Source of the DNA: Asterochloris sp. CNOR1
Lineage: Eukaryota > Chlorophyta > Trebouxiophyceae > Trebouxiales > Trebouxiaceae
Assembly (NCBI GenBank): GCA_963969365.1
Contig: OZ017759.1
Coordinates: 1,302,001 to 1,366,000 of the forward strand
Length of the DNA stretch: 64,000 bases
Reading direction: 5' to 3'
The notes beneath the pieces are model-generated. The model searched no databases, was not told where the DNA came from, and worked only from the letters and a program-made list of their open reading frames with translations. A program made the translations under genes and the position numbers. Positions 957-57,100 of this stretch are shown one piece after another. Position 1 is the first letter of the stretch, and every line of letters begins with the position of its first letter.

Positions 957-3900
957 TCACTCAGCAGTATATCTCAGGTGGCAATAGCAGCCTGAAGTCA
1001 GCTGCGGGGAAGGGTGTGGCGGCCGCTGTGGGCGTGACGCGGCTCATGCAGCAGTGTACACAAATGCTGCGGGACAGGATGTGGAGCGAAGGTGGGCGAA
1101 AAGCATCTTGCTTGTTATGGAGCCAATGCAGCAGGCATGTAGATGCTGCAAGCAGGCTGCAAACCTGGTGAACAGGCATTTGATGAGCAGTAGGGCATGT
1201 GGATGTCGTCAACAGGGTGTAAAGCTGGGGCAACAGGCCAGCTGTCATTGTTCCTGTGCAAACTTCTGCAAGCACTGCTCATGCTAGCAAAGTGGCCCTT
1301 TGCTGTTCATCCTGCTGCACACCTCACCCTTCAATGGGAACAATGCTGCCTGTATGCATGCCCTGGTCTGCTTGGCAGATTGCTGTTGGTGCTGCTCATG
1401 AAAGGTCAGCATTAGCACTGGCCAGCAGCACAATGACGGGGAGGTTGTGAGGGCCTGTGCAGTGCCCACTCTGGGCAAGCCAGTGGTGCTGCTGCAGGCA
1501 CCCAAAGCAGTTGCCAGCAGCTCTGCCAGGCCAGCGGTGGTATGTGTTGGTGGTTTTGTCGCATTGTACTCAGGCATGCTGCAGTGAATGCTGACGCAGG
1601 CGGGCCCAACAGCCGACTGGCGACCCCGCCCGTGCAGCACCGCTTTGCAGCTTCTGGAGTGGCACCCTCGCCAGATAATGCACTGGAGGCAATGGGCCCG
1701 GTGCTGGAGTCCGTCCTGGGCAGCTTGACCCAGGTGGGTCCGTCTTCCTTAGTTGGAGGAGTTTTTGCTTTGTTGCAGAGCTTGAGCCCCAGTGCTGGAG
1801 TTTGCCTGGGTCAGCTGGCTCACGTATGTCAAAACCCTTGACCACCACTCAGCTCAAAGGTGTCTGCTCCTGGCAAAGCTGGGCCCGGTGGCCCCCCCCC
1901 CTCCTGGCCAGTCTGACTCAGGCGGGACAGTCTCTGGCATCACCTGGCTGCTGGAGCCTGTGCAAAATGGCAGAGCATGGGTGCAGCGCTCTCTCTTGGG
2001 CTGTCAGATTCTGGTGGGTCAGCAAGCCCTAGCATCAGGGTCTGTGCTTCAAGGCAAGCATGGACGCAGTGTCGCACCCTGTCCTGGGCAGTCTGAGTCA
2101 GGCAGATCAGCGTGTCACAGCTTCAGGGTATGTAATTTGTGGCACAGTTTGGCGCTCTGTTCTGCGCAGTCTGGCTCTGGTGACCAGCTTGCCAAAGCTT
2201 TTGGGTCTGTGCTTCACAGCAAAGCCCATCGAGGAGCAGGCTGACGCTGCTGTTGGTGCTCATGCACCACATGTATCCCAGGCGTTGCATGAGCCAGTTG
2301 CGAATGGTTCACAAGATGCATACCAGCTGGGGCTGGCAGCTTAGCGCCAGCAGTTTGCAGAGTCAATATGCACCTGGCCTCATGGCCCAAAGCAGCGGCT
2401 GTCAAGACATACATTGCCCGTAGCAGCATGAGAACTGCCTGCTTCCCCAGGGCCACAAGATGAAAGCTGCGCACACAGCCCCTGACATGCACTTCACAGG
2501 TGATGTCTGTTTCTGCAGGAGTATGAGAAGCGGTTGCTGGCAAAGGACCATGAGGTCAAAGCTGCACAGATGCAGATTGAGCACCTGCGCTCAGAGGTGT
2601 TGGAGGCCAAGAGGGTCATGGCAGAGGGGTCTAACCTGCTGCCTGCGCCTGAGCCCACAGCAGGTGAGCACAGTGCTGCTTGAAGGCCCTTACAAGATTG
2701 GAAACTGGTCATGGCAGAGCTTGATACTGCTGCCTGCGTCTAGGACTACTGCAGGTGTGCACAGTGCACTTTGAAAGCTCTAAAACATTTGAGAGGTTGT
2801 CATGGCAGACAGGTCCAATTTGCTGCCTGCGCCTGAGCGCACTGCAAATGAGCACAGTACAGTGTGAAGGCTTCCATGAAATGGAGTCATGGTCATAGCA
2901 GAGGCGTCCAATGTGCTACCTGCGCATGAGCACCCTGTGGGGCAGCTGGCTAATGCTTAAGAAGCTGCATGGATGTGACGTCTGGTGTTGCTGCTATCAA
3001 GTGGGTGGCCTTCACCGCAAGGGCCACCTTGCATTTGCCAGCCGCCTGGCTGGGAGTTTTGGGGAGCTTAGTGACCAGCTGAGTTGTGAGCGACCGTTTC
3101 CACAAATGTTGCTGCTATCATGTCCATCTCCAGCAACAAACACGTTCACCATGTTGCAGGTATGACTGAAGAGGAGCGGCAGGAGCTGGAGTCAATGAGG
3201 CAGCATGAACAGCAGCTGTGTGAGCAGCTGGACAAGTGAGTACCCATGTCTGCTCATTGTCTGCCTGCGGGCAACTGAGAATGAGTGTGAGGGTCTGCCC
3301 CACAGCTGCCTGTGAGCGTGTAAGGCAGGTGTGTCTGGGAGACACAGAGGATCAGCAGCTGTGTGAGCCACTGGACAAGGGAGTGCCCACAGCTACTATG
3401 CACACAGTTGACGTGGGCCATTGAAGCTGCATGGGAGTCCCTGTGTAGCTGTGGCTGATGGGCCAACAGAACAAAGCAGCAAAATCTCTGCTACTGGCCA
3501 GTCACTGTTATTCAGCAATGCTCAAGCCTGTCAGCCTCTTACTTGATCATCTTGCCTACCAGGCAGATTTTGAAGTTGTCCAAGCTGCAGCTTGTGTGCA
3601 GGCTTGATGCTGAGCTACATGCCTCACAAGAGGTTGCGGCGCAAACAGAGGCAGAGAGGACTGCGCTGCTGGATGAGTTCCAGCAGCTCCAAGCCCAGGT
3701 GCGGCCATAAGGTCTTACTGTGTGGCTGCACAAACTGGCTAGGTTCAAGGTTTTAACTGAGCGCAGTGGAAGCCTAGCAGGCGTGGAGCTCCGCTGCTGC
3801 CCTTGTGAGGAGGACAGCTTGCTTCACAGCTGCACTGGCTGTGGCAAGGTGCAGATCCATGCTTTTCCAGAATGTAGGCCTGCTGCATAGCTGCACTGTC

Positions 3901-6900
3901 CTGTCAAAGTGCTGACTTCATAATATCTTGCCAGTCAGGCGTGCTGCACAATCATCCTCCAGCCCCGTCTGGCCCCGTGCCTTTCCCTGAAATCATTGGG
4001 CTTGCTTGAGCGGAACAGGGGCTTGATCAGGAGATCCGCTGGCAGACATGGAAGTCAGACCCCATAACCGGCATGTAAATGGCCACTTTGTGGTCAGGCA
4101 AGTCCAGAGTTGCAAATCAAGGTTTGCAGGCAGCATGACCAGGCCTGACACCTCCAACGGCTTCACTACGCTTACACATGTATGCAGTGCAGGTGGATGA
4201 GCTGTCTGAGGTGGCTTTCAAGCAAATCACCATCTTGGGTCAGTGCCCAACTGCCATGTGACAACATGCATGAATGTTGCAGGGGGATATGCTGTCTAGG
4301 CAGCTGACAAGTACACTAGCAGCACCCTGCAGACCAGCAACACCCTGCAGCTTGCAGGTACACCTTGTTCCAGATTCCTGACAGCAACTCATGATGCATC
4401 ATCATGCAGTGGATGAGCAGTACTAATTGGCTGGTGAGTACAGCACCATTCTGGGGCAGGGGCTGCTGTCATCTGACAGCATGCATGCATGCTGCAGGTG
4501 GATGAACTGTCTGAGGTGGCTGACAAGTACAGCACCACTCTGGAGGAGAACCGGCGCTTATACAATGAGGTGCAGGACTTGAAAGGCAACATCCGCGTGT
4601 TCTGCCGCATCCGCCCGTCGGGCTGCACGGGTAGCGCCGACCACAGCTGCGTGGACGCTGGCGTGGAGGGGGAGGTCAGTTGAGCTTTCGTGTGATGCAG
4701 TGCGCAGGGAGCAGGTCTGTGTACTCCTCAGTTGGGTGCATTGCAGCGCGATCCCAGCTAGGCGGACCTCGCCTTGGGGGTGTTGGGGGCAGTGGGGTTG
4801 TTGCTGCTGCCTGGTCTGCACAGTCAGCCTGTGCGCCCTCTGGTGAGGGGGGAAAGGTCACTTGCATGACTTGTGCTCCACTATGAGACGGCAGCAAATA
4901 CACTGCGGTATGAGGGTGCTGGTGCTCCTCAACCAGGCCCTTGGGCTGCACTAGCAGCTCTGCCCGCGGCTGCATGGATACTGGCATGGAGGCGGAGGTC
5001 ATTGGAGTCAGATATGCTGCCCAGCGGAGGGCATTGACCTGCCTGTGCGCTGCCAGTATGCCTGTGCACATCTGCTATGCTTCCGGCTGCAAGGCTAGCT
5101 CCCGCTGTGGCTGCATGCAGCCTGGGGTGTAGTGGAGGGTCAATCGAATCCATTGTGCTGTCATGCAGAGGGAAGTGCCAGCAGTGCTGCTCTGCAAGCA
5201 TGCATCATGAACAGTGGCTGCGCTCTGCAGCCTGCTTGAGGAAGACAGCCCGTGGCAACCTGTTGCATGTGCATCACATCTGGTTATCATGTGGATGGCG
5301 GCTCCAAGTCTCTCCCATGGGCACTTGAGCTGGGGCCAGCTTAGACCTGCTGCCTTGGCCAGGTGACAGGGGACAGGCCGGAAAAGCGTGTGCTGTTGTT
5401 GATGGGCACGTCTACTTGGCAGTAAGGACCATGGGGTCCTTATGCTTTCATCAGAGTCAGGCCTGGTACATAGGCTTGAAAGCCTGCTTTGGCTCTTGCC
5501 ATTCACTCTTCCCTCTGGCTGTGACATGTGCTCCTTCACTGTGCCGCTTGCTGTGGTGATAACTTGCAAGCTGCACCTCACATAGTGCACTACTAGGTGA
5601 GGACAGTCCTGCCCTGTGCCTGCGCAGGCAGCCAGGCCCAGCAGTTGTATGTCGTGCGGTTCGAGTCCACCTGATATCCACAGTTGTCCACATTGTGCAG
5701 TTGTCCAGATTGTGGCTGTGCAGGTGGCCATCTCCAACCCACGCAACCTGCTCCGCAAACAGTACAAGTTTGACAAGGTGTTTGGCCCAGACAGTACCCA
5801 GGAGCAGGTGTATGAGGACACCAAAGCCCTCATCAGATCTGTGCTGGATGGTGGGTGAACCATGGCTGCTCCTCAGGCAATGGCTGGGAAGTGACTGGCC
5901 GCGAGGTATTGCATCAGATCTATGCTGGATGCTGGGTGAACATTGACGGCTTTGTCGTGCCTCATCAGACATCTGCCGGGGCCTTGCCCCCCAGTTGCAT
6001 CATCAGACCTGTGTCAGATGCTTGTTGCAGTTGGGACTTACGGCTGGGGAGCCCCTGCCTATCAGGATGCCTCACCAGACATGTGCGGGGTGGTGGTGCA
6101 GTGCAAATGCTCTCTACTGTCACTGCAGCCAGGCAGGCAGCACTTGCAATGTCTGCCGGACCTGGCCACAGTCTAGCTGTTCTGGACGCTGGCCGCTGCA
6201 GCCTGTAGCAGATATCAAAACATCTCAATGGTCAGCGGTTTAGCACCTGTGTCCTGTCGTGTATCAAAGATGGGGCAAGCAAGTTTTCTCAGCACATCTT
6301 TCTCAGCTTGTACAGAGCTGTCAGAACTGGGCTTTTACCTCAAGCACGACGTCGAGCAGCCATCATTCTAAGGGCACTGTCAGCTGTCACCTCAAGAGCA
6401 GCCATCCTCTTGCAGCTGCACATCAGCATTGAACTTGCAGCAGGGCCTTGCTCAGCACGAGACCCTTGCTTGCTGAAAGAGTCAGCCTACAGCAGGATGC
6501 AATGCTATGCGAATGTCTCTTGCAGCCCACAATCCAAGTTTAAGTGCCTGCAGGGCACGCTGTATGCTTACATCACAGCTTCACATGGTGCTAGCTCTGT
6601 TGGCTCATCCACAAAGCCCTCCAGATCACACAATGGCATGTGGTGCCTGCAGGCTACAATGTATGCATCTTTGCCTATGGACAAACTGGCTCAGGCAAGA
6701 CACACACCATGGCGGGCACCAACATAGAGCACTACAGTGGCCGAGGCATCAACTATCGGGCCCTTGATGACCTGTTCTCCCTGAATGAGCAGCGTAAGGG
6801 GGAGGTGAGCATTAAGCACCACCACTTCTGCTGTTTTCAATCATGACCAGCAATTGAAACCACTAGACCAAGAGTGCAAGGCAGGCTTGTGAGCTGCTGG

Positions 6901-9900
6901 CCCAAGCAGCACAGGACCCGCTGCAATTCCGCAGACATGAGCCGATCTCCCAATGGTGCCCTGCACTGCGCCTGCATGGCAGCTGCTAGTCTGCCCCCTA
7001 GAAGTTCTCAAGATTGTGGCAGGTATATTCCAAGCTGCAGGTAGACTCAACACTTTGTATTGGCCTTCTGTGCAAAAGTTGAGGCCGCCTGTGTGCTTCT
7101 CAGCACAATGCTTGTTGTGATTGCAGCGTATGTCACATGTTGTTAGCTGTGTTGACAGCGTAAGTACCAGACCTAGGTGCAGATGCTGAAGATCTACAAT
7201 GAGCAGCTTCACTGTCTCAGCCTCTTAGCGTATGATGAGTCTCCTGTTGGTGCAGTGTGGGGCAGCAGCTGGACGCAGCAGATGTGCTGCAGTCTCCTAA
7301 ATGTCATGTTCCTCAGTCAAGATTTTGCTGCAGTTGCTCGTGAAAGTTGACATTGCTGCTGCGATTCCCCTGCAGTGTGAGTACCAGATCCTGGTGCAGC
7401 TGCTGGAGATCTACAACGAGCAGCTGCGCGATCTGCTAGATGAGAGCAGAACCCACAAGCGACTGGACATCAGGAACACTGAGCGCAGTGGGCTCAACGT
7501 GCCGGACGCCATTCAGGTGCTGATTGGCAGCTGGGCTGTGTCAGTTCTGAGTCTAGGTGACAAGCAGGTGCAGTAGGCTGGCCTTTGCCTGCAGGCGCTG
7601 GCAGCTGGTGCAGCACCACAGCTGTGATCAGGAAGTATGAATGCAGCTTGGGAGAGGGGGTTCCCTCCTGTGGGCTACATGCATCTGCCAGGGCAGCTGC
7701 CACATTGCCTCTGCTGGGAACTAGGAGCGGCCTGTGCCTCAGTCTCACATCAAAGGCGCCAGCGCTCACAACTTGAGGCATCACCTTAGCACCTCTTTTC
7801 TTGAGAAGTCTGAGTGACAAGCAACTGCCTCAGTGCTGCCGCAGGCGCCAGTCACACCTAGAAGGATCTGCTGGACGTCATGCAAATGGTGCCAGGAGCA
7901 GAGCTGCACCTGTGCTTGACCAGACATACGTGTTAGCAGGTGCCTGATCACTGCTGCAGGTGCCTGTGCACACGACAGAAGATGTGCTGGAGGTGATGGC
8001 AACTGGGGCCAGGAACAGGGCTGTGGCAGAGACCAAGATGAATGAGCGCAGCAGCCGCAGCCATTCGGTGCTGACCATCATGGTGGACGGAGTCAATAAT
8101 GTGACGGGCATTCGCACTCATGGCTGCCTGCACCTGATAGACCTGGCAGGTGGGCTGGATGGATGCTGTCTCTGTCGCCTGCAGCAGAGGCATGCTAACC
8201 CAGTTAGCTGGGCTGGCAGCTGCACCCATAGCTGCCTGCCCCTGATCGACCCGGCAGGTTGCTTGCCGAGTGCTGTATCTGTCAGCTGCAGCAGGGCTGC
8301 ATTGGCTGCCTGCTCTTCAAGCCCTGGCAGATGAATGAGTGCTGGCATCACTCTTAGCCACCTGCTAAGGCTCTGGGGACCTGCGTGGCCACCATGCTGT
8401 GTAGCTTTGCCATCCATTGCCTCATTGTGAAATTGACTGGTGCCAACTGTCAGGACAACGTGCTAGCTGGCAGCGCATCCTGTGGGCTGGCAGCCGTGGC
8501 TTACTGTTCTAAGCTGCATCACTGCGGCAGATGGGCTCACCCTGTGGTGCCGTTGAGCTGGGGGCATGCCTGTGCTGCAGCAGGGCTGCAAACAGCTGAG
8601 GTGCCACATCATATCAGGGTGTGCTGGCTGTTGCAGAGAAGCTAGTTGGGTCTGGCACCCCATACGGCAGCTGCCTGCCTGGGGGTTGCTCCTCAGGCTA
8701 CAACTCTGCTCTGCCTTGTCTCAGGCAACAGAGGTGCCTACCTGCAAGCACTTTCTCAATGAAGGCTCTACGCGCTGGTGCAGGCAGTGAGCGTGTAGGC
8801 AAGAGCGAGGCGACTGGGGACAGGCTAGAGGAGGCCAAGCACATCAACAAGTCTCTGTCAGCACTAGGTCAGCTGGCACCTGTGTTGATGCCACCAAAAC
8901 AGGATGCAGGCAGCACCCTGTGCGTGCATGGAGGCTCTGTGCACAGAGTGTCGCACATGTCTTTGCCGGTGATAGCAGCCCAGTTGCATACAAGACAACA
9001 TCTGATGCAACAGAGCGCACGCTGGGTGGCTGCTCTGATTCATAACTGCCCCAAAAATGGGCAGACATTATGTTGCCTGAGCCTGTTATGCTCAATACTT
9101 GAGCACCACTAGCTCGCTCTGCAAAGGTGTGTGAATAGGACCACTGCAAGCAGCAACCTGGGCACGCCACTTGCATCGGTCACTTGAATGCCTTGGTACC
9201 CTATGAGCATTGACATGCATCTGGGGGCTGCTGGATCATTGCCTGGCCCCTGTGGCTGTAGGCAGCATCTACATGATGCAGCCTATCTGCTTGCCATCAG
9301 GCCTGGAAGCATGGCTGCTGTGCCCGACCACTTCCCACCACTTGGGTGCAGGTGACGTGATGAGTGCACTGGCCAGCAAGCAGGGCCACATCCCCTTTCG
9401 CAACAGCAAGCTGACCCAACTACTGCAGGACTCCCTGTGCGGGCAGGCCAAGGCCATGATGTTCATGCACATTGCACCAGAGGTGAGTGCAGAGCTGAGG
9501 CCATGATGCTCATGCATGAGCTATGCATGAGCTATGTGGGCAGGCACTGAGCGCCGTAAGGCCAAGATGCTCGTGCCTCAAGCAGCAGAGGTGTGTAAGG
9601 GACTTGCACTGGCTCCACAAGAGCCCAAGACAGTGCTGATAGCGCCTTACCACCTGCAGGTCTTCTCTGTCACCTGGAGAGCTGCAGTATGCTAGGCTTC
9701 AACTGGCCCACTATAGATATGACAATCGAGTGCCTGCAGGTGTCCTGTCATGGCACCAGCACCAGCATATTGACCTGTGGCTGCTGCACCATAGAGGAGA
9801 CACTGACTATCTGCAGGCGTCCTCTCACGGGGAGAGCACCAGCACGCTCGCCTTTGGCAGCCGTGTCTCAGAGGTGACCCTGGGGCAGGCCAAGAAGAAT

Positions 9901-12900
9901 AGCGAGAGTGCCCAGATCTTTGAGGCCAAGGATCAGGTCATCAGGTACGCTGAGATCTGATGAGGGGCATGGTGCTTATGCGCTCATGAGTTCATCAGGG
10001 CTTGTCCTATGCACCAGCGAGAGCTGTCAGGACTCAAACGCTGTCAGTATTATGTATCATTTGATTTTCAGCCAAACCATGATGTTTAAAGCAAGGGGCC
10101 TGATGGGGCCCTGCACCTGTGGAGCTTGATCAGGACATGTCGCGGCAAGCTGAAAGATGTTATGGCCTGGCCTGCACGCCAGCTGCACATGATAGCATCC
10201 AATGTGCACACTGAAAGGCCCAACACACAGGCACTGTCCATAGTGCCAGCAGCGCTCCAACCATGGTCTAGCTCCTGCAGCTGTTTGTAAGGCACGCCCC
10301 AAGCCCTGCAGCAGGGATGCATGTGGAAACCAGCACAACATGCATGTTCTGCTGGGGAAGGTCTGCGTGCCGTGCTGCAGACTGGATTGCAAGGGCATGG
10401 AAGATGCATATGCTCCACCTGCTGCAGGAGGTCAGTTGTGAGGTGGCCCACACGTGTCCCCAGCGAGCATGTATGCGCCCATGTGTACTGACTCGGTGCG
10501 AACCTTCTGGATGTGTCTGCTGCAGACTGGAGCGCGAGGTGGACAATGCCCGAACTGAGGCGCAGAAGGTGCGCAGCGTGCTGGCGGCCGAGCGCACAGC
10601 CTGCGCCAACGCGCTGGCAGACCGCAGCAGAATGGAGGCAGAGCTGGCGCAGATGCGGGTGGGTGCCTGGTACAAAGCGCGGCCTGAAAAATGCCACAGT
10701 TAGTGCCAGATGAGTCACACAGTTCTGCCGTCAGCATGTGCAGCCCATCACATTCCTGTCCTTCCATAGGCAGCGCAAGCAGGGTGCATCCTGCAGCAGG
10801 ATGAAGGCAGAGCTGGCATAAATTTGGGTGGGGCCATGTGTGGCCGATTTTGTGACAGGACACAGAGCGTGTCTAGTGATGCCTTGGTGAGGGCAGCAGG
10901 ATAGAGACAAAGCTGGCGCTGGTGCATCCTGGCATCTCTTCACCATGTGTGACTTATCCAGCTGCTGTCTAAAAGCACAAAAACATAGCACCAGCGAGGG
11001 GCAAGATCAAACGGAGGCAGGGCTGGCGCAAATGGCTGCTTGACTGTGCTTTGCGGCTGCTGATTGGCTGCAGCCTCTGACCACACGCAGGGCGGCAGGA
11101 TCTGCGATGTCTGGCTATCCACCATCCAAGCAGAACCATGCTTGGCAGCTGCAAAAGATGCAAGCCGAACTGCAGCAGGGTGCATGCAGGACCAGCACAA
11201 AAGCCGCGTGTGCTGCGACGCTGCTGTGTAGATGAAGCTGGCAGGGACAGGGCCATCAACAGCACACTGCATACAACAGGCCGCAGCCACGGCTCTTGTG
11301 ATGTGCACGCATTCTGTCCTCTGCTGTGCAGATGGAGCTGGCTGCTGCCAGGCGGGCAGGAGCAGCATCGCCCATGTCAGTGGCGTCCACTACCACCAGC
11401 GCTGCCACGGACGGCGATGCAGCCCTTATTTCCGCAGTACGTACCAGGACGCCTGCAGGGCCCAGCGGGCTCAGCAGCACAGAGCTGGGTTTGGAGAGGC
11501 TGCAGTCACCGGTGTCCACGCCACCCACGTCCAAGGTGCACAGCAGGGCTGTCAGACAAAGGGGCAAGGCACAGGCAGCTATGCTGATGCTGGATCGCGC
11601 AGTGTCAGTTCCATTCAGCAGCTGTCTGCGCTCAGCAACTGTCCTCGCAGGCTGCAATTCGTGTGCATCACCTCCCTGGACAAGCTGCGTCCAACCTCAT
11701 GGACCTGTGCCAATGCGGGGTGCCCTGGCAGCCAGGGCCACAAATTCCTCCGTGCCTGCATCATGCACATCGCATGCTGTCGGCCCAACTCAAGATGTGC
11801 GTCCATGCCTGCAGCCTGCCTCACGCATTCCCTCGCCCAGCCCCAACCTGCGGCGCTCAAGGTCAGGCAGTGGGCGACTGGCAGCCTCTGCTAGCGCAAC
11901 GGTGCTGCCAGCTGCCCTGGAGAGTGCTAGGGCCCCAGGCAAGCCCCAGGGAAACACAAAGGCTCTCTGTACCTCTTCAGAGGCAATGTCTCAACGTGTT
12001 TGCTTTGCCAGTGCCGCCACACCTACTTTGCTGGCGGTAAGAGCAACTCATCAGAGGTCAGTGTTGGTGAACAGAGTGCTAGCTTTGCATGTGGCAAGGG
12101 GTCCATTATCTCATTATTGTTTTCATGCAGGGGCTGGGGAGGCGGGTCGCTTGAAACGTCCCGCAGGGGGCGGGCTGGTGCGCAGGAGTGTCAGCGGGAG
12201 CACAGCTGCTGAGCTGTCGAGGGGGCTGGCGTCAGCGAGGGCACCTGTCTCTGCGCGGGGGACGAGCACTGCCGATGCACGGTGGGGACTAAGGGTTCCT
12301 GTGCTGCCAGAGAGGCTCTGGCAGAGAAAGCTGCTGAGCAAGCTGGGGCATGTGCCTCTGCGCAAACAATGGTGTCATTGTCAGTCAGCAAGGTGACTTC
12401 ACAGAGGAATGTCCTCTGTGTGCGAGTTTCAGTCCACCTCCCAGACAGGCAAGCCAACAGCACTGATCTCAGTGTGCAGGGGTCAACCTGCCCGTCCGTC
12501 AGGCAGATTGTCAGCATCAGTCGGCGGGAAGCGGGCGACAGGTAGCACCCTGCTCGCGTCTGGGCCAGCTGGAGCACGGCGCAACATTTCTGGCTCCTCC
12601 TCTGAAGACAAGCTGGGCACCTCTGGGGCACCCTCAGGTGAGACACGCGTCCATCAGCATGCCGTGCTTGGCATCCACAGAGCCATTCTGGGCATCTCTT
12701 GGGCACCCACAGGTGACGATTGCGGTACATGATTGCACCTGCACGCTGTATACAGCCTACCTGCAAGGCTCGCCCCCTCTGGAGCCCCTGCCCGCCCACG
12801 GCTTCGCACATGCGTGGCCTCCATGCAGCACACAGCGTTCCAAGTCTGCAGATAGAGTGGGCACCTCTAGGCCCCCCCTGATGTCAGCCTGCCTGGCCAA

Positions 12901-13845: not shown

Positions 13846-16800
13846 ATGACCTACATGGGCCTTGCCATGCTGCTACAACCACGGTTTGTGAGATTGCCTC
13901 CCGCGACGAGGGCAGTCAGCATCAGCAGATCTGTCACAGCCATGTCTCAGAGGTGGGCATGTGCAAATCTGTGTGCATGCATTAGCTCATGTGCCTGGAA
14001 AGCCTGTGCCACAGTATGTGTTTCCTGTGACTGTAGCGCTATGCACGGCAGATATACTCTGGTCTTGCAGGTTTCAATTAGCTTCTGCGCTGCTGCTGCC
14101 TGAGCATGGGGAGCCTCTGAATGTGCTCAAGCTAGAGCAGCAAGAGCTACCACAGCTCGGCGCTGACGATGTGAAAGTCCACATTCTTGCAGTGAGCCCC
14201 CTACACTTTATGCATGGTGCTGTACTGCAGTCCAGTAAGTGTTGCAATGCCCCTGGCAGCCTGTTTCCCCTTGCTGCCGTGGGCCCCTGCACGCCTGTGA
14301 TGAAGGACGCTGCATTGCATGGCAGGGCATGTTGACTTAGCCTGTCAGCCTGCTTTGCTTGGTGCCCAGCATCTAATGGGCATGACAGCTATGCAGTCGG
14401 TGTCTTTGAGTCAGCACACTGCCTCAGTGTCTCAGCTGAATGGGAGCATGACAGGCTTTACCATGTTCAAGTGTGGCCTTTTACAGCAAGCTGCGTACCT
14501 CCTTTGCAGAGCCCCATCAACCCCAGCGACGTCAACGTGGTGCAAGGGAAGTACCCCATCAAGCCCAAGCTGCCTGGGGTGCCCGGCAACGAGGGTGTTG
14601 CACGAGTTGTGGAGGCAGGCAGCAATGTGAGTGAGCACGGAGATCATGAGCATGTACATGCATGCCAGCAAGTCTATGCTATTCAACACCAACTTCTGTT
14701 GACCTGTCTCAAACTTGGGTGTGGGCGGCTGCCTGCGCTGCCGGCTAGTCCCATCTTGGATTGAATTGCAGCTTGTACAGCAACCTGGCTGCATGTCCCA
14801 CAGTGCCAGCTCAGCAGTAGAAGGATGTCCACAACTGGCATGGAGGGACCCGATGTGGCTGAGGAAGCTGACCAAAGGCCGCAGGGTACATGTCTGAAGC
14901 ACTACAAAAGGGTTGTTTGTCCACAGACATGATCTGTGTCCTCCTGTGAGCACTAATGTAGCAGCTGGCTTGGTGGCAGCAAGCTGAAACAACTGGTGTG
15001 CATGTGGGCTGCAGGTCACCAGCCTGAAGCAGGGCAGCCTGGTCGTCCCCCTCGCAGCTGCAATGGGCTTCTGGCGCAAGGCAGCAGTCATGCCAGCTGC
15101 AGACCTGTATGAGGTCCCTGGTGACATGCTAATTGAGGCTGCTGCCACCCTGTGCATCAAGTGAGCCTCTGGAGAGCTCTGTGAACTCTATGAACGTGCG
15201 CAGGACATGGCAAGATTCAGCAGAGAGACCACAGTTGGCTGTGGTCGCTGTGCAGCAGGAGCACTGTGCCTAATGTGCTTGCCATCAAGGACTTCACACC
15301 GTATGCAGCATGGCTGTGGGTTTATGCCCATGGATGCAGCTCATGCATCTAGTGTGCCGCATGTGTCCATCAAACCTTGTTGTCTGAGCCAGTCGGCAGT
15401 CCTTGAGCAGGGCAGGCACTCTTTGTGACAATACTGGGTGGCACCCCTTGAGGCCATGCCTGCACCTGGAGGGCTGCCATGTGGCATGATCCGTAACGCA
15501 GGACTTTTGCGGCTTGCCTTGTGAATTGCAGACACAGGGCTGGAATCCAAAATGCAGGCAGCCGTCTTGCGTCAAACTCAGTGAGCTCCTTGCTGCTTCC
15601 TCACCTGTTGGTCCGGCTGGTGCAGTACTGGGTGCATGCTGAAGGCATAGAGCTTAGTGGGAGCTTCTCCCTCAGAAATGCGTATGCTGGGTCCTGCACC
15701 TAGAAGGCAGCGCTTAGAATGTGCTAATATGCTCCTCAACAATGATGACCTTCAAACACTCTGGGCTGCAGGGGATTGTGGCCCACACAGTCAAGGCAAG
15801 GTCACTGTGTGGGCCTGATTCCCCTTCAGCCCGGAGTATTTGGGCCTGCAGCTGTACTCAGCTGTTTTGTGCCTTCACCACAAAAGCAGCCACCCCCAGC
15901 GTACAGTGAAGCACCCTGCTGTATTCTTGGCTGCAGGCTGTCATTTGCTACACCCCCTGTGGTGGATCTTGCTGGCGGTGTGCTAACTGTCTTACCTAAG
16001 CACAAAAGTGACATCCTTACCTGCAGCCCCCCCTCGGCGCTGCGCATGCTTGAAGAGTATGTGGATCTGCAACCAGGGGATGCTGTCATCCAGAATGGGG
16101 CCAACAGTGCAGTTGGGCAGGTGGGCAGGCGAGTATAGAGCAGGAGGACAGCTGCATTCACTGGAGTGCGCATCTCATCCAGAAAGAGCATGGCACTACA
16201 TATCGGTCACAAGTGCAAGATTACAACTTTGTGGCTGGCAGTCACTGGCCTGGAAGCTTGACTGAAGCTCAGCGTGGCCTCGGCTTTGAGCCTGGACCCC
16301 TGCCATCTGGGAGCAGCACAGCCTGTCGGGGCATACGAGCCACAGCTTGGGTGCCGGCATGCATCATTGCAGCAGATCAAGCAGGCCCACTTCCTCGCCT
16401 TGACCCCTGGCCGCTACCTGCAGCTGGTGATTCAGATTGCCAAGAGCAAGGGGGTCCACAGCATCAACATTGTGCGGGGGCGGCCAGAGGCAGCAATGCA
16501 GGCCGTGGAGGAGCACCTCAAGGGGCTGGGGGCAGATGTGGTGACCACAGAAGAGAAGCTGAGGGAGGCGTTTGGTGCGTGATTTGGTAGCAGGCTTCAA
16601 GGGGATGCACAGGAGCACGCATTGTCGCATTGTATCAGATCTCCGTGCATTCAAGCTGAATGCAGGGCAGCTGCACGTATGAAAGAGGGCTGGATGATGC
16701 TGCAAGCTCCACTGAAATGCTGGGAGAGGCCTGCATTGATTGTGTCTTGCACATGATGGAGCAGCATGTGCATGCATCCACGGTCACAGTAGCTGCTCTG

Positions 16801-18733
16801 AGTCGCGTGAAGGTCAATCAAGGTGCCAGCAGCGTCATGCATGGCAGTCAAAGCGTTTCACGCATCATAGCGGATAGCAAGCCTGGTTGGGGTTGGCGCG
16901 CCTGTGGTTGTGCAGGCGCCAGGCGCTGCTGCACATCGTCTTACCAGCCGCAGTGTCACCGCAGTGCCTGAGCGGCTCTGGGTGCAGCTGTGCCCTGCCC
17001 TTCTTGCGGGACCAGGGGCTCACCAGCCAAATATCTGGCAGCGTCGCTCGTGTCTGCAGCGTGCATTGGTCATGACTCTGGGTCATGGGGCAATCAGCAG
17101 CATGATCAAGTGCAGCTTGCCCTGCAGCATGGGCGCAGAGTCTGCCCGTGGTCTTAGTATGCACAAGTCAGCCTGACAATGCTTGTTACTAGCAGTGCCA
17201 GTGCACACAGGCTGCGCCGTTGCGTCTGCAGGCTATGCCAAAGCTCGGCCTAGAACAGGCGGATCAACTGCTGCTGTGCCAGGCCCTGTGTCTGCAGATG
17301 CCTGAACGCCTAAGCAGACCGGCACTCACGCTGTTGCTGCTTGTAGGGCAGGCTGGGCTCCTAGCCGCCAAGCTGGGCCTGAACTGCTTGAGAGGTGATA
17401 CACGTGGCCATGCTTGGCCTCAGACACCGTACCTGTTTGCTTGCAGGGCAGGCGGGCCTGCCGGCCCCAAAGCTAGGCTTGAACTGCGTGGGGGGCAGCG
17501 CCTCAGCTGCAGTGGCCAAGATGCTGGCAGCAGGGGGCACCATGGTTACTTATGGTGAGCATGTGGCCTGTGAAAGCTGCGCACGCCTCTCCTTGGCATG
17601 TGGGTGGCACAGGCTGCATTCAACACCCCATATGTTGGGAATGTCAGCTCTGGTGTGCGCTCACAAGCGTCTCATCACGCTGAGCATGCTATGCGCATGC
17701 TCAGCAGGCAGAATACTGGATAGACATGGCAAGTACCATGACGCTGGACTTTGACTAATTGGATGGCAATGCAGAATGGACACCCTCTGCTTTCACTATT
17801 GGCTTGACCAAGCCTCAACCTTGCATGCGAACTGTTTCAGTGTGGCTGCTGCAGATGCCATGGGGCCCCCAGGCTGAGACGTGCTGTGCATGTGAAGTGC
17901 ATTGCAAGCAGGACGCCCTTTGCTCTCGTATGTCGCTACGGGTCAGCATGTAAAGTGCTGTGCTGCAGCTGTGGCTGCTGCAGGCCCCATGGGCAATCCA
18001 GGCTAATCTGCTGCTGTGCGGTGCAGGCGGCATGAGCATGCAGCCTGTGACAATACCCACAGGCCTGCAAATCTTCAAGGGCATCAAGGCGATGGGCTTC
18101 TGGCTGAGTAAGTCTGTCCTGCCATGCAGTTGTCTGTTCGCTGCCTGCTGCCTGCTAACTGCGCCCAGTGAACTGGTCCGCAAGCCAATTCAGCGCAGAT
18201 GCATTTTGGCTGTGCCTACCCCATCTCGCAGCAGTCCTCACAGCAGCCATGGCAAACTTCGGCAAGCTGCAGCTCATTGCTCCCAGAGTTAGTGCCACAA
18301 GGTGCTCCGGACCACAGGGGAATTCATGCTCAGCAGTCTGAAGCCAAAGATTACACTGGTGACTGCAGGTGGCGGCAGTGCTGAGCAGCCTAAAGCCAAG
18401 CGCCAGGTGCTGGACAAGCTGGTTCCCCTGGTGCAGAGCGGGGCCATCAAGACGAGGTGACCTCATTTGCATCTCCCAGCAGACTGGTGCACATGCAGTT
18501 GCTCTCCATGTCACTGCAATTCAGCGGCACATGTGCAGCCTGCTGCCATCTTGCAAGCGCATGTGGGCTGTGAGTGCCAGCTTCAAGGGCATCTAGCCTG
18601 TGAAGTGCAGATGTGTTGCTGCTTCGGCTGCAGGACGCAGGATGTGCCACTGTCAGCCTGGCGAGAGGCCTTTGAACAGCACGCCAGGGGGACACAAGGG
18701 GCAGTGAAGACGCTCCTGAGGCCTCAGGAGTGA
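13846..18733 (+). CDS. MECR: Mitochondrial enoyl-[acyl-carrier-protein] reductase (trans-2-enoyl-CoA reductase), MECR/ETR1 family
   Basis: NADPH-dependent reductase that catalyses the last step of mitochondrial type II fatty acid synthesis, which feeds lipoate production. Ten exons join in phase to a 370-residue protein: 13846-13952, 14071-14191, 14510-14626, 15015-15160, 16027-16120, 16424-16574, 17447-17554, 18027-18107, 18369-18456, 18634-18733. The length matches animal MECR (about 373). Exon 1 is Arg/Ser-rich and lacks acidic residues after its first codons, like a mitochondrial presequence; ATGs at 13846, 13855 and 13867 are all possible starts. Family landmarks are [16 protein letters not shown] with the conserved Tyr, [26 protein letters not shown] at the nucleotide-binding turn, [16 protein letters not shown] and IKAMGFWLS. 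The introns carry clear exon echoes (17.2-17.45, 17.84-18.0 and 18.3-18.37 kb). Confidence 0.96.
17225..17446 (+). repeat. Two echoes of the MECR exon at 17447
   Basis: Copies of the exon start (GGGCAGGCGGGCCTGCCGG through AAGCTAGGCTTGAACTGC) lie at about 17346-17395 and, weaker, at 17232-17262. The 17346 copy keeps its TGTAG acceptor and reads openly as [14 protein letters not shown] before a GT, so it resembles a second version of the exon. Confidence 0.85.
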
Positions 18734-19097: not shown

Positions 19098-21460
<2,363 letters not shown>

Positions 21461-21462
21461 AG

Positions 21463-30538: not shown

Positions 30539-30539
30539 T

Positions 30540-31685
30540 AGTCCTGCTTTCTAGAACTCCGTCAGGTTTTTAAGCCCAGACTGAACACTGGCGGGGCGTC
30601 CTGGGGGGGGACTTCAAACAAGTTGGTCATCAGCATGATGGGACTGCTGCTGTCGACGCTGTCCACCCAGGTCAGCTGTGAAGTTGGGATCTACCAGGGC
30701 CACTGTTCCTGTCCTGAGCCATGATGGGTTATGTCCAGACAGTTGCAGCTCTGGCAGAGCCTGCCAAACCGCTTGTGGTGTCTGTTGATGAGTGGTTCGA
30801 CAGAAAGCAATAAGGACTCCAGGTGTCTCGTTCTTGGATAAGCTACTTTTTAACTAAAGGCACTGCAGCATCAGCACTTTGCCTGCTAAGCAGCTCCTGC
30901 CCCAGATTGTGCTTAACGCCACCGCCTATCTGGGTGCAGATAGCCCACTGCATTACATCGTGGCACCTCCTCATGAGCGATGAGGTTGAAACTTGGCCAC
31001 CTTCAGTTGCACCAAAATCTTTGCACTCTGGTCAGGGTGCAAAGAATCTGGTGCAATCAAAGCTGGCCAAGTATTCAACCTGATCACTCATGAGGCGGTG
31101 CCAGGATGTAATGCAGGGGGCTAATTGAGAGTCTACCTGAGACCCGGCGCAGCAAGGAGCTGATGTGTTAACCCAAGCACAAGCTCATGATGGAGTGCTG
31201 GGTTGGCGTCATCATACCACACGGTAGGGATGTGATGTATGGCAGCCATGATGCCTGTACATGTTGCTCAAACAGAGGTTTGTATGCTTCATGCCTTGAG
31301 AATCGGTTCTTGGCACACCAAGCTGAGTCAGGTAGGGCTTTGGGCCTCCAGCTTGTCACTCTGCCAGGGCTAGTACTGAGCAGGGTGGGCAGCTGTGGGC
31401 ATCACCTATGTCCTTGCCAGGGGTGGTTGTTGCCATGCAGGCCGGCTTAGAGATGCCAGATGATGCTTCATCTGCATCTGTCTGTTGCCTGGATGCCCCC
31501 CAAAGGCAGAGGCATGACCATGTCTGCTGCTCGCACTGCCTGGTCAAGCGTGCAGGTTGGGCACAACTCACACTCTCAGAAGCCACTTGAAGCTATGGTG
31601 TTGCCCAGCCCAAGACGGGGGGCGCTAGCATGCTGACTGGTGATGAGCACAGTAGTTGCCCTGACGGCGGTGCGCTTGACCCTGC
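30540..31685. other. Unresolved non-coding or intronic stretch
   Basis: No exon could be supported here on either strand. A minus-strand open run at 31168-31359 contains NRFSRHEAYKPLFEQHVQ, which looks protein-like but has no recognised family; a decayed transposase piece is possible but unproven. A G-run lies at 30604-30610. Confidence 0.3.
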
Positions 31686-31704
31686 AGGGCATCTCCTTTG
31701 CTGG

Positions 31705-31915
31705 GAGGTGCGTTCAGGAGGGCATGCGCCGCCCCATGCTCAGTCCTGCTGAGCAGGATCAGATTGGAATACCAATCAAGTTTCTCGACCTGGTCCCTGT
31801 GGGGCTGGGAGGTGCACCACAGGGACCACTTCGAGAAACATGACTGGTCTTCCAAGCTGATACTGCTCAGCAGGACTGAGCATGGGGCGGCGCATGCCCT
31901 CCTGAACGCATGCTG
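31705..31915. repeat. Long inverted repeat, arms of about 100 bp
   Basis: The left arm (about 31708-31806) contains TTCAGGAGGGCATGCGCC, CCCCATGCTCAGTCCTGCTG and TTTCTCGACCTGGTCCCTGT. The right arm (about 31815-31913) carries the reverse complement of each in reverse order (ACAGGGACCACTTCGAGAAA, CAGCAGGACTGAGCATGGGG, GGCGCATGCCCTCCTGAA). The spacer is only about 10 bp, so RNA from it would form a long hairpin. Confidence 0.92.
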
Positions 31916-50834: not shown

Positions 50835-53800
50835 TCATGGCTGCTGCTTGTCCGAGGGGAATTCAGGGGGAGGGGAAGGTTTCTCCTGGGTATCTGCTCT
50901 GTCTTGCCCTGCATCTGAAGGCAGCTTTGAGCTGCTGTCTGTGGTGGAAGACTGGGATGGCGACTGATAGTTTACCGCTTCCTTAGCTTGCAGCCTGTTC
51001 AGCAAGGGGCTCTCAGGGATGGGGCTGGGGCTGGTGCGCAATGGCTCGCCATCTGCAGGTAACAGCTGCAAACTGCACCATGATGCATGCTGCATGATGA
51101 CAGGCAGACTTGGTAGAGAACAGTGCCATGCAAGGCCAGAGACTGCTTGACTGTCTGTCCGATATTGAAGCTACCCTTGAGGCAGGTGTCAGGCTCACAG
51201 CTTACCCCCCAAACCCAGAAGGTCAGCTCGTCATGCAGAGTGCCATTCGTACGGTCCCAGCAAGCAGATGGCCCTTTCTTGACAAGCTGAAGGCCGCTCA
51301 GAGCTATCTTTCGGCGCGTTCAACAACACAATACGCTGTCCAGTACCGGCCAGGGCAAGTTGCAACAAGAAGCACCTTGCAGGAAGAGTCAGGCTCACCG
51401 TGGTTCCAGTAGCAAAAGCTGCCGTCAAAAACATGGCTCATGCGAGACTGCTTCACTTTGAGATAGCCTTCGCTATATTTCTGTGCCTGGACTATGCAGG
51501 GTATGCGTTCCAAAACTTGCACGCCAAGGCTCTGAAGGGTGCTGATCTTCCGAGGATTGTTGGTCTGCAGTAAGGAGGGACACTGCTTCAGGTCCCTGCA
51601 GGTGACGTCAGCTGGGCAGCAGCAGGCAGCTGCTGCCCCACAGAAGCAGTGGAGACACAGGCTGAACTCTTGACACAGCCCTGTATACATTGCGGGGACA
51701 TGTTCAATCTGCACAGGCCAGTGCTGCACCTGCCCGACATCGTGAAATCTTAAGGCAGATGGAGCTTGTGGCAATGGACAGTGCCGGCATCGCCAAAACT
51801 GCTCCTGACCATGAGTCTGCAGATGCCTTCCTCAGGCTGAGGTTCAGGCGTAGCATCTGATCCATGCGCTTGTAGCTGCCTGGGTGCAGACACTGCGGGT
51901 CCCCTTACCATGAGCAAGTGCTTGTCACGCCCCAGCTGTGCAGGACACACACTCTGCAAGTACAGGCCCCAGAACCACCCCAAGTGCATTGGTGACTCCC
52001 CGCCCTCGAGTCAAACGTCAGCCAACAGCCGCCAAACTGGAGCATCAGCATTGCACAGCGACCCTCACCATGAGTTTGATGCTTTTCACGCCCAAGTCGC
52101 GCAGGATGTTCCGCACAGAGGTGTACTCTCGGCAGTCGTCTGGCAGCCCCAGTGCCCTGTTTGCATCTACAGTGTCCAGACCTTGCTCCTGCAGAAAACA
52201 AACCTTCTTGCCATCATTGCAACTAAACAGCATGGCCGCGCATGTGGGCTGGCTCCTGCAGCCAGTGAGCCAACAGAGTCACTGCAGCTCACCAGCTTGG
52301 CCTCTTGGATGCCTTCCATGCTCCTACAGCTAATAAGCCTCAACTCTTATGCAGCCCAGCAGCAGTGGCGCATCATGCGCAGGGCCTGCCAGCTGCAGAG
52401 TCTGCCTGCTGCAGACTGTTCAGAAGGCTGTGACACTGTGCTAGTAATGAAAAAGGTCTTGGCCAACACCTCAGGTGTCTGGTTGCCACCCAGAACTACC
52501 TAAAGCAAAGTGCGGGATGCCCTTGCCAAAGTGCAGCAGCTGCTGCTGAGCTCACAAGGGTCATGCCAGGCATGCCCGGCCTTCACAGAGCATGGGCCTT
52601 GGCAGGTCTTGTTCTGGCAGGGCCAGGCAGCACCCCAAGCCTGGCAGGCCTTGCTTGAAGCACTGTCCCGACAGAGCCTGCCAGGACTGCTTCCATGCTG
52701 TGAAACCGCCTTGCACGCTTGTTGTGTCCCATGAGCCTTGCTCTGCCCCGGTTCCACAGGCAGCAGGCCTGGCACCCCTGGTGTGCCTCAGCAGCGCTCA
52801 CCTGCAGGGCGTATGCTGCTATCTTGTTGGCCAGGCCGATGCCGCGGCCCTCCTGCTGCAGGTAGATGATGATCCCGCAGCCAGCCTCCTGAATGTATTG
52901 CATGGATAACTGCAGCTGCTCTGCACAGTCGCACTTCAATGACCCCAAGACCTCTGCAGGCAGAGGCCCACTGTCAGCTGTCTGTCGAAGGCCGCCTTAC
53001 AAGTGCGTTCGTGCATATGCTATGCGGCAGCCACCACATGTATGCGGGTTGGCTGGTGCAGCATCAGGCTGGTCCATCTAAGCTGCTGATGCTGGTGCAG
53101 CAATGTGCATTGGTGTGCAAGGTCACAATGGCACGCTGCTCTCTGACTGATTGAGACACACAGAGCTGGGCTTGCCTGATGTGAAGCAGGCATCATGAAC
53201 TCTGACGGGCACCTGCGCGCGTTTGCACAAGGGCACTGTAAGGGCACAGCCCACAGATTCAGGAGTGGCAGGACGCCGTGCAGAAAGCCTGCAAAAGGTA
53301 AGGCATGGCCCCACCTCAGACTGTCCCTCTGGGTGCCCAGTGACTATGCAGCTGGGCTCTGAGCAGGTCTGTCCGCCATCAATCTGCACACAAGAGCATG
53401 GCCTCAGTTCATCGGGAGGTGGAGGTGAATGGCCCGCAGCAAGGCCTGTCTTTTCAGAAGCGGCAGCCGAAAACAACTGCACAACAGGCTATGATGTCAG
53501 AGCACTTCTGCTGGCAGCAGGTCTGCTCACAGAGTGCCTGTAAGCCCTGACTCTGAAGTCTCCATGTCGCGTAGGCAGCAGAGTCTCTGCTACAAAGACA
53601 GTCTTGTCACGGTCTGCCAGCTCTGCCAGCGACACTCCATTGCCAGCTGTTGCAGCTGCCGTGCTGCCATTGCCTGAGCCATAGCCAGAGAGGGTGGCCT
53701 GCACCCTTAAAGCCTCTTTGACATTGACTTTGGCTCTTCTTTGGGCAATCACATCCTCAAGTGAGCTGGTCACAAACAGTCTGTGCCTATGCCGGTGCCT

Positions 53801-54113: not shown

Positions 54114-57100
54114 ATGCAACAGAGCCTTCATGGCCAGACTTTTAGATGCTTCAGCCTTAGGGGATCTGCTGCGTTACACTCAGAGAAGGGGAAGGTGACA
54201 TGCCGTCACGACACCACTACATGTGCCAAAAAGGGTGGCAAGAAGAAAAAGAAACAGGGTGATGCAGAGCCTGAGCAGGTTTGTGCTGACACAGCAGGAG
54301 CTGCAGGCTGCCATATGCTGGTGGACCCTTTTCAAGCATAATTTTCTCTTGAATTCAGTAAACAGAGAGGCAAGCAGCTGTGGCCTGTGTGCAGGCACCA
54401 GGGGCCCCACCCCCGCCACGAGTGGACCCCAACCTGAATGTGCCCCTCAAGAGGCAGAAGCGCATAGGCCTGCTCAGGAAGGTGGGCAGAAGCATCGGTT
54501 GGGCGTTTGCGGACACTTCTCGTGGGCGGATAGCAGTGGCCTGGACTGCTGCGACATCAGTTGGCAGTTGAATGACAACATCGCCAATTGCCCAACACTC
54601 TGACATCATGTGGCAGCAGCTGCCAGCAGGGCCAGCTGCATCACACACCACCTGTCGACATCAGCCAGGTCTGCAGACGTCCATGTCCTGGTTGCATGAG
54701 GCACGTTCTGGTGACTGCTGTGCAGGCCGCTGCCAGGGAGCCTGCGACCAGCGTGCCAGCAATCCCTACAGCCTTCAGGAAGCGGCCCCAGACTCCAGAG
54801 GAGCGGGCTCTGGTGAGCACCAGCAGCGAGATGGGCCTAGGTTGATCTGAAAGCGCTGAAAGATGTTCAAGAAGACTGGCCAGGCACCGTAATGTCTGCA
54901 TCTCCAGTTGTGGGAGCTAGCGCTGAAAGATGTTCAAGAAGACTGGCCAGGCACCGTAATGTCTGCATCTCCAGTTGTGGGAGCTAGCGGAGCATCAGGG
55001 CCCAGGTTGTTTGACCTGCGCTGCAAGACCTTTTATGCATACTGGTGTGGCACCGCCATCTTTGCATCACCAGTGCTGGGGGGCCAGGGGAGCGGGCTCT
55101 CATCACTAAAACAGCAGCCAGCTTGGACCAATTCTGGTGAAGTCCCGGCAGGATGTTGCCATTGCTGGGCACAGCTGAGCGATCTGCGGGTGCAGTCGTC
55201 TGCCTTTTGCCAACTGCATCCTGAAATTTGGCTTCAGAAAGGCCATTGACATCCCCAGCACTGGAGAGCAATCCCTTTCAGCCTTTTGTGCTGATTGCGG
55301 CATCCCACTGCTGGCGGACAGCTCGGCTCAAGCGCATGTCTCGGCACCGCGGCTGCTGCTGCAAAAGAGCCTGTGCAGCAGGGAAGGCAGATTGCATTTA
55401 AAGTACAATGGGGAGGCAGTTTGCATTCGAATATACAACTGATCTATGCTGCTGCTGGGTGCAGGCTCAGAGGGAGGCCTGGGAAGAGGAGGAGCGCCGC
55501 AGGAAGTTCAAGGCCTCAACCAGAACGCTGCAGAACATCTATGGCACCAAGGTGGACGGTGTTTGCCCTTGCTGCCTGCACTGGGTCGCATGGCTGCCGA
55601 CCAGCACCCTACAAAACATGCATGGACCAACGCCTGCGATGCATAAGATGGTGTTGACAGGGCCACATGGGCTGCCTATTGCATGCTATGTCACGGGCAG
55701 CCGCGGCGGCGATGTGTGGACAGACCGCGTGTAGCGGTTGCATGGGTCTGCCTGCAGCCCTCTGCCGCCTGATATTTTGAGACAAGTCTGCAGTGGCGCT
55801 GACTAAAGTCGTTGGAGGTCCTGACATGTCTATTGCAATGTGTCGGAACATGGCCACACAGGCTGCCTGTTGCGTGCGCATGGCTGACTGCAGCGAGATG
55901 TGTGGCTGATTTTGCAGAGGCTGCACAAGTGAGCCCTGTGCTGTTTGGAACGGTGGTTGCGCTGCACCCATTGTGTGCCATGGTCTGATGAAGTGCACAG
56001 AGGCCCTAGTGCTTGGCAACATGCACTTGCATGCAGGTCTCTGGACGAAAACGCGCGTCCTGTGCTGCAGCCTTCACCCCTGTGCCATGCAGCCTTCTCC
56101 TGTTGAGCTGCCTCTCACTGCTTGCAGGGGGACGAGTGCCCCCCAGTCCTGCTGGTGGATGGCTACAATGTAGCCTTCCTCTGGAAACGCTTGTGGGCAA
56201 GCGACAGGCTTGGCCGGGCCACCAGCCTGGAGGATGGCAGGTAGTACACTTGCTTGGGTTGGTGCTGGGAGATACTCAGGTCCATGCGAGCCACTACTCA
56301 GCAGGAACAGCAATATGACATTCCTGAAGGTTTGTCGTGCTTGGTTTCATGCTGGGCATTGCTCAGGCCAGCTACCACTTAGTAGCCACAGCACCGGATG
56401 CCTTGAAAGCTGAGATGGGGGAGTGGAGCGCTCCCGAGGGTCGTCTGCTGTGCTCCCGAGTGTTGTCTGTTGCACACGACTAGCTTGTACCTGCAGGGAG
56501 ATCTTGGAAGCGGAGCTGGGGGAGTACAGTGCCCACAAGGGCATCAAGGTGGTCTGCGCCTGGGATGCCCAGCAGCGCGTCAGCAACCCCTCGGAGGGCG
56601 CTGCCAAGCCCAGCACAGTCCGGTGGGTTCTGCCAGCAAGCTTGCACAAACGATTCTCACCGAGGAGTAGTGTGGGCTCCTGCTGCTATACAAGAGTTAC
56701 ATTCTGGCGTGAAGGCTGCCTGCCATCAGGTGGTAACCTTGACTTCAGACACTGCTGGTCTTGCGATTGTGCACATGACATCTGCCTGGCTGTGGACTTC
56801 AGTGCACTAGCTCACAACCAGGGTCATGTACCACAGTTCCCTGCCATGTGGCGCTGGTGGCCAGGCTTTGTTTCCAAGCAATTTATTGCGCAATTTGCAG
56901 AGGCTTTGCTAGCACAGCACCGTGTCAGCAACCCCTCAGAGGGCAATGTCAAGCCCAGCACAGTCCAATAGGGCCTGCAAGCAAGCTCAGAAAGACTTCA
57001 CTACTGTTTCTGTTTCTAGGCAGATCCCTTTCTGGGGCATGTTTGCTGGTCTCAAGTGCTGTTGTGCACTTATGAAGGCAGCTCAATGACACAAAGCGCT

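Follow-up and report, generated by a model that had tools for sequence, protein, structure and literature searches.

Partial copies of exon edges in Asterochloris introns: probable remnants of a general local tandem duplication process

The window analyzed here is a 64,000-nt stretch of the genome of the green alga Asterochloris (C14:1302001-1366000), which comprises 56.4 Mb in 21 contigs, 18 of them 2.0-4.5 Mb long and two others of 43 and 110 kb. The genes of the window include those for a kinesin, MECR, a VTT-domain (TVP38-like) protein, PEX11, GTP cyclohydrolase II and YacP. Partial copies of neighboring exon edges, here called echoes, were found in introns of most of these genes, usually together with the adjoining splice site. 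A sequence-only reading of the window had described such echoes and attributed them to repeated small tandem duplication followed by decay; its observation as a whole was confirmed, and it holds well beyond the window.

Gene models came from a splice-aware hidden Markov model (HMM) gene finder trained on these data, which learned a strong splice consensus (donor GTGAG, acceptor TGCAG). The predicted proteins were recognized by Pfam as kinesin, ADH_N (MECR), VTT, PEX11, GTP_cyclohydro2 and NYN_YacP. The gene finder called 11.7% of the sequence coding, about half of the expectation from the published gene number and mRNA length, and an Rfam scan of the window gave no match. The published Asterochloris glomerata genome, described as having 56 Mb, about nine introns per gene and about 5% repetitive DNA (PMC6652019), is very probably that of the same alga or of a close relative. 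The window kinesin showed no mismatch to jgi/Astpho2/3861 apart from the alignment ends.

The main data set consisted of the window and 18 stretches of 10 kb, each taken at the same fixed coordinate of a different large contig (244 kb in total), and five further stretches (50 kb) formed a hold-out set. An event was defined as a direct repeat pair with a score of at least 18 and a lag of at most 600 bp. A length-independent low-complexity filter dropped 5 of 209 events, and one of 36 in the hold-out set, and the removal of scores of 17 or larger lags reduced the main set from 204 to 164 events. A polyubiquitin array was kept in the self-BLAST and the lag scan and was left out of later counts. 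The per-gene listing of echoes, the flank-homology test (with its hold-out part) and the intron-length tally use an earlier event set.

The kinesin gene, on the + strand, is the strongest case. With exons taken from the Joint Genome Institute (JGI) Asterochloris model P0001, six of the eight motor-domain exons carry one to five echoes, 11 in total. The exon at 4498-4674 (from P0001) is preceded by three echoes of its acceptor edge within 4188-4459 (4188-4232, 4251-4297 and 4409-4459) and followed by two echoes of its donor edge within 4938-5147 (4938-5007 and 5082-5147). At 2519-2946 the 3' end of an exon (about 2519-2663, read from the sequence) and its donor are followed by decaying tandem copies of exon end, donor and intron start, and Tandem Repeats Finder (TRF) reported an array at 2614-2937 with a period of 91-93 and 3.5 copies overall. 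The exon at about 7964-8149 has an upstream acceptor-edge echo (7820-7906) and a downstream donor-edge echo (8215-8294). Single echoes were found downstream of the donor edge of exon 5724-5850 (5912-5951) and of exon 9352-9482 (9558-9596; score 19, near the threshold), and upstream of the acceptor edge of the exon starting at 7376 (7156-7217; 81% identity, CAG present, one in-frame stop) and of exon 9817-9944 (9734-9805; weak tblastn match to P0001, E = 0.98).

Echoes were also found in four of the other five genes named by the sequence-only reading. In MECR (+), the segment 17433-17495, within which the exon at about 17458-17554 begins, has an upstream echo at 17331-17395, and the segment 17899-18043, which extends to the start of the exon ending at about 18112, has a weaker one (64%) at 17766-17911, likewise upstream. 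The VTT-domain gene (+) contains a cluster of local copies at 23206-23651 around exon 23363-23428, an HMM call only, with 23399-23465 repeated at 23527-23593 as an example, and a downstream donor-edge echo (24743-24792) of exon 24398-24666. In PEX11 (-) the 3' part of the exon at about 28116-28298 has a downstream echo at 27924-27968; the gene finder miscalled this echo as an exon (27915-27944), and extra residues corresponding to it are absent from the Trebouxia homologue. In YacP (+) exon 56497-56622 has a downstream donor-edge echo (56912-56987; 83%) and an upstream echo of its 5' part (56402-56440), the match beginning 6 nt inside the exon, and exon 58073-58253 has an upstream acceptor-edge echo (57970-58002). 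In GTP cyclohydrolase II (-) no event reached the threshold within the gene; the donor edge of exon 52069-52188 may have an echo in a single weak pair (51902-51945/52062-52106, E = 2e-3).

The position of the echoes relative to their parent exons followed a strict rule. In the 164-event set, upstream echoes contained the acceptor edge in 25 cases and the donor edge in one (4.8 and 2.5 under random placement), while downstream echoes contained the donor edge in 23 cases and the acceptor edge in one (4.9 and 2.6). Cases with one edge thus followed the rule in 48 instances against two; two further echoes contained both edges and eight lay in the exon interior. The hold-out set gave five acceptor-edge echoes upstream, five donor-edge echoes downstream, none of the opposite kind and four interior ones, so that the rule was obeyed in 58 of 60 one-edge cases overall. 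At least one echo was present at 37 of the 208 called exons. All 11 kinesin echoes, with exons from the independent JGI model, obey the rule, and both local pairs of MECR, with exons placed by homology, sit upstream of exon starts. The copies do lie on either side of the parent exon, as had been noticed, with acceptor-edge copies upstream and donor-edge copies downstream. This geometry is predicted by tandem duplication across one splice junction, because the full exon then stays spliceable; it is the signature of units spanning a single junction, which leave a partial copy on the intron side and the intact exon joined to the other parts of the gene.

Local direct repeats were far more frequent than expected by chance. 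Self-BLAST of the window (E <= 0.01) returned direct repeats at lags of 102-1170 bp and five self-palindromic or near-self-palindromic matches, and nothing more. Across 24 stretches (six pieces covering the first 60 kb of the window, and the 18 sampled stretches), 95 direct high-scoring segment pairs (HSPs) were found, 83 of them within 600 bp, compared with three in dinucleotide shuffles, and 19 of the 24 stretches contained at least one direct HSP within 600 bp. There were 23 inverted HSPs, mostly self-palindromes, compared with 14 in shuffles. A lag scan (lags 10-599, score of at least 18) detected 197 segments in the real sequence and two in shuffles. Most of the real repeats had lags of 60-400 bp; their frequency peaked at 90-110 bp and had fallen almost to background at about 600 bp. 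A 50-kb E. coli control yielded two segments, compared with about 32 events per 50 kb in the alga and 35 events in the 50 kb of the hold-out set. The mode near 100 bp, seen over the window and the 18 stretches, points to a favored unit size. Lag-summed base autocorrelation was set aside as evidence, since duplication could not be separated from composition.

The comparison that the sequence-only reading had proposed, between exon edges and their own or other flanks, gave a clear answer. After removal of polyubiquitin edges and of edges near stretch ends (335 reduced to 296), exon edges (+/-40 bp) matched their own flanks (600 bp on each side) with a score of at least 18 in 43 of 296 cases (14.5%). 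The flanks of other genes were matched in 7 of 2960 comparisons (0.24%), and the edges' own reverse-complemented flanks in 0 of 296. The CTGCAG-rich composition, which had been named as the possible undoing of the observation, fails to explain the echoes, because matches to other genes and to reverse complements are so rare. The same data bear on an origin of the pairs from dispersed mobile elements, such as introners or miniature inverted-repeat transposable elements, or from chance similarity of the CTGCAG/GTGAG splice consensus. The splice consensus is indeed strong in this genome and some palindromic hairpins are present, but direct HSPs between stretches numbered three in 24 comparisons, against the 95 within stretches, other-gene edges rarely matched, and genome searches with two echo-bearing stretches returned their own locus only, which makes this origin extremely improbable.

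Duplication was not tied to exon borders, contrary to what the focus of the sequence-only reading on borders implied. Pairs were equally dense within introns (intron-intron, 0.49 per kb) and in unassigned DNA (0.46 per kb); per kb of exon, densities were 1.74 for exon-intron and 0.04 for exon-exon pairs. Pairs of exon with non-coding sequence numbered 71, against 36.7 +/- 5.2 under random placement, and exon-exon pairs 3, against 9.7 +/- 3.1. Counted by members, exon bases are involved in pairs at about twice the rate of intron bases, which agrees with decay at half speed when one of the two partners is frozen. The aligned stretch was longer toward the exon in 36 of 44 untied edge pairs; this and the codon, indel, frame and splice-dinucleotide statistics below were obtained from 46 of the 48 edge pairs. 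What makes borders conspicuous is that selection conserves the exon and that this geometry survives splicing. The exon echo represents the part of a general local duplication process that splicing has sorted and that selection on exons has kept visible.

The distribution of events among introns fits lengthening by duplication, though this is partly a matter of room. At least one event was present in 46 of 105 called introns of at least 300 bp, in 3 of 41 of 150-300 bp and in 6 of 30 shorter than 150 bp, and some of the last merely divide an exon from a miscalled echo. The detected copies amount to a few percent of the sequence (155 events with a mean of 46 nt in 244 kb). The description of introns as built from such copies was therefore borne out only in part, and larger shares come from models only.

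The head-to-tail form is seen most directly in the longer recent copies. Among the ten alignments of at least 60 nt and at least 85% identity, the length of homology equaled the lag in five and exceeded it in one (a three-copy array); it covered 0.5-0.9 of the lag in three, one of them that same array at double lag, and less than 0.5 in one. Polyubiquitin aside, TRF arrays with a period of 60-400 and a match of at least 80% were found at 54852-54989 of the window (67 bp, 2.1 copies, 100%) and in the sampled stretches L012 (119 bp, 2.0 copies), L017 (68 bp, 3.0), L007 (65 bp, 1.9) and L016 (387 bp, 2.0). The array at 54852-54989, outside called exons, is a young perfect head-to-tail duplication with a unit of 67 bp and a total of 138 bp, that is, with a 4-bp repeat at the junction. 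Flanks beyond the matches retained residual homology, 17.7% lying above the cut-off compared with 1.6% of mispaired controls (300 flank pairs, p = 8e-15). Direct orientation, short lags, the head-to-tail form of several long recent copies, residual homology and geometry thus agree with the earlier proposal of repeated small tandem duplication and decay. Tandem duplication is the simplest reading, resting most on geometry, with adjacency established for a minority of pairs only.

Tandem duplication could also act in another way, giving birth to introns whose two borders form the pairs, at a lag equal to the intron length (the Rogers/Hellsten, or AGGT, model). Similar 5' and 3' borders (score of at least 18) were indeed found in 4 of 160 introns, compared with 1 of 3200 mismatched pairs. 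However, these are only four introns, two of which (window 10655-10796 and 24667-24786) probably reflect echoes miscalled as exons, and the median lag of exon-noncoding pairs is 181 bp against a median intron of 382 bp, so that most echoes do not lie at an intron-length lag; as a general account, intron birth is highly unlikely. Two introns with like border windows, in the stretches L012 (217 bp, score 19) and L023 (85 bp, score 23), are candidates for duplication-born introns or for miscalled echoes.

Once formed, the echoes decay near neutrally, without clear coding constraint. Within the exon-derived portions of edge pairs, identity was 0.76, 0.80 and 0.74 at the first, second and third codon positions, and 19 of 22 indels were frame-breaking. 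Transitions at CpG were 2.7 times as frequent as elsewhere (0.24 against 0.09), and the substitution spectrum was balanced (C>T 0.118, T>C 0.151), which does not fit hypermutation resembling repeat-induced point mutation (RIP). Where aligned, the splice dinucleotides of the echoes were kept in 16 of 19 cases for AG and in 13 of 18 for GT, as the sequence-only reading had noticed for CAG acceptors and GT donors; with 29 of 37 dinucleotides kept, spare splice sites are not being removed. Its statement that the copies mostly carry stops or lost frames did not stand, since a frameshift or stop was present in only 17 of 45 aligned exon pieces, which are short.

Taken together, we consider it probable, at roughly 80%, that the echoes are the decayed products of a general head-to-tail duplication acting on DNA. 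Segments mostly of 60-400 bp, with a mode near 100, would be duplicated in tandem. A unit across an acceptor would leave part of the exon copied on the upstream side of the intact one, and a unit across a donor would leave such a copy downstream; in either case a complete exon with both splice sites would survive, and the mRNA could stay unchanged. Units inside exons would presumably be purged. The echo and the intron flanks would then drift while the exon is held by selection, leaving exon-anchored pairs detectable about twice as long, and the spliceosome would ignore the unpaired spare site by exon definition. The process was probably much more active in the past than recently. Locality, orientation, geometry, the scarcity of exon-exon pairs and decay without clear coding constraint are the established parts of this explanation.

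Several observations weigh against it. Most exon models come from the home-made HMM, which missed exons of MECR and miscalled some echoes as exons. Of the 30 alignments with at least 85% identity, homology length equaled the lag in only seven, whereas in 17, mostly short ones, it fell below half the lag; TRF by design detects tandem arrays only. Similarity exceeded the control beyond the predicted unit as well (14.5% against 5.8%, score 10), an excess that arrays of three or more copies would give. Where both sides align, identity was equal on the exon and intron sides (0.767 and 0.771, banded alignment), so the idea of a twofold clock rests on aligned length and densities; a higher exon than intron identity (0.75 against 0.70), obtained with a lenient gapped alignment, was dropped after it disappeared under stricter alignment. 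Finally, splice dinucleotides were kept in echoes slightly more often than elsewhere (29/37 against 101/169, p = 0.04), synonymous single changes were in excess (85 in 247 codons, 67.7 expected at random, p = 0.015) and stops were scarce (4 against 8.9 expected, p = 0.06), so that some echoes might still be in use. Changes in the parent exon itself, which are mostly synonymous, should account for part of the synonymous and stop deviation.

These last deviations are what would be seen if the echoes were mutually exclusive or cassette exons under selection, derived from tandem exon duplication for alternative splicing, and 28 of 45 echoes are in frame and free of stops over the aligned piece. 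Such exons should have two edges, but both were spanned in only 2 of 60 exon-member rows. Frame-breaking indels predominate and every codon position decays; the synonymous share of 0.34 (random, 0.27) is far under the expectation for two coding copies, and in the JGI kinesin model, as in the Trebouxia PEX11 protein, only the parent exon is used. Selected alternative exons are for these reasons an unlikely explanation of the echoes, which are better read as decaying duplication products.

Most copies appear to be old. Only 4 of 87 non-coding pairs with lags of 60-400 bp reached a score of at least 50, whereas simulations with a constant birth rate predicted 35.5, 25.6 or 16.9 of 87, with the whole lag, 60% or 40% of it duplicated. 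Deconvolution for the 244 kb assigned 187-341 births to the range of 0.15-0.4 substitutions per site per lineage and 4-38 to values below 0.15, depending on the assumed duplicated share. The excess of word matches was fitted less well by a constant-rate model (chi-square 38.8) than by models in which duplication stopped at a pairwise divergence of 0.2-0.3 (8.3-9.3), with correlated errors; this analysis was used for the direction of age only, as its free fit gives most weight to 50% identity, which composition can mimic. A single sharp burst was disfavored by the like score distributions of exon-anchored and non-coding pairs (p = 0.60), and a long regime fits better. Under these models, the data suggest an old duplication episode that has mostly stopped. 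Collapse of young perfect repeats in the assembly is possible, yet perfect repeats are present, namely the array at 54852-54989 and an inverted repeat in the stretch L011. The copies had been said to grade from near-identical to barely visible; perfect and near-perfect tandem copies do exist, but most copies are old and there is no even gradation.

The scarcity of young copies would be no sign of an old wave if copies were born already diverged, arose by copy-and-insert or were soon hypermutated. Young pairs are few, and the majority of high-identity matches extend over less than half the lag, as such an origin would have it. Against it stand the balanced, not RIP-like, spectrum, the perfect and near-perfect tandem copies and the residual homology in the flanks, and we regard it as unlikely. 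As a tentative extension of the age models, a long episode of roughly 100-bp tandem duplication, now almost silent, may have rebuilt much of the non-coding DNA. Introns would then have grown mainly by copying their own neighborhood, not by transposons, each splice junction would have had a sizeable chance of being copied, and the causal machinery or replication state would have been switched off in the lineage.

Tandem exon duplication and mutually exclusive exons have reportedly been treated by Kondrashov and Koonin in 2001 and by Letunic in 2002, and close direct repeats or short local tandem duplications are said to have been described as a general class of insertions by Achaz and co-workers, by Thomas, and by Messer and Arndt. 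The echoes share with that class the direct orientation, short distance, decay with age and occurrence in introns and unassigned DNA alike. They differ from it, as measured in one genome, in having units with a mode near 100 bp, a splice-edge geometry and few young members. Small tandem duplications across an intron-exon border are known to carry the splice site along, as the echoes do; the known border duplication made a new intron, whereas here the copies are decaying echoes inside introns, at 43 of 296 exon edges. Mutually exclusive exons (PMC6071210) likewise involve local duplication of an exon and adjacent intron, but the echoes mostly hold one exon edge and decay without clear coding constraint. 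The word 'tandem' is absent from the main text of the Asterochloris glomerata genome paper (PMC6652019), and from the accessible text of that on the Trebouxia 'A48' genome (PMC12712428). Among the top-ranked matches in the open-licence literature, none described echoes of exon edges as pervasive in a green alga. Within these sources, micro-tandem and border duplications are of known kinds, and the density, strict geometry and age profile are what is new.

Exons can serve here as fixed references, each echo being an oriented record of an adjoining duplication. To our knowledge, intron lengthening without transposons is poorly documented. The acceptor-upstream, donor-downstream rule also offers a clean way to test which duplications are tolerated by splicing, and to test exon against intron definition. 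For annotation, gene finders can mistake echoes whose splice dinucleotides are intact for exons, as happened in PEX11. Since the copies look old, the same introns in other species of Asterochloris, and perhaps of Trebouxia, should share echoes.

Other repeats were noticed in the same sequences. In the stretch L011 (C6:500001-510000), positions 7057-8264 and 8793-10000 are the arms of an inverted repeat, 100% identical and at least 1208 bp long, with 528 bp between them; the repeat reaches the end of the stretch. Palindromes in the window at 31709-31910, 30941-31123, 15753-15842 and 52555-52733 (the last weak), with arms of at most 97 nt and 92% complementarity, could be long hairpins or small inverted-repeat elements. 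The polyubiquitin gene, at 19098-20676 of the window (-), has four units, and introns of 155-175 bp recur once per unit. A second ubiquitin-like tandem cluster lies about 126 kb from it, at C14:1449102-1455009.

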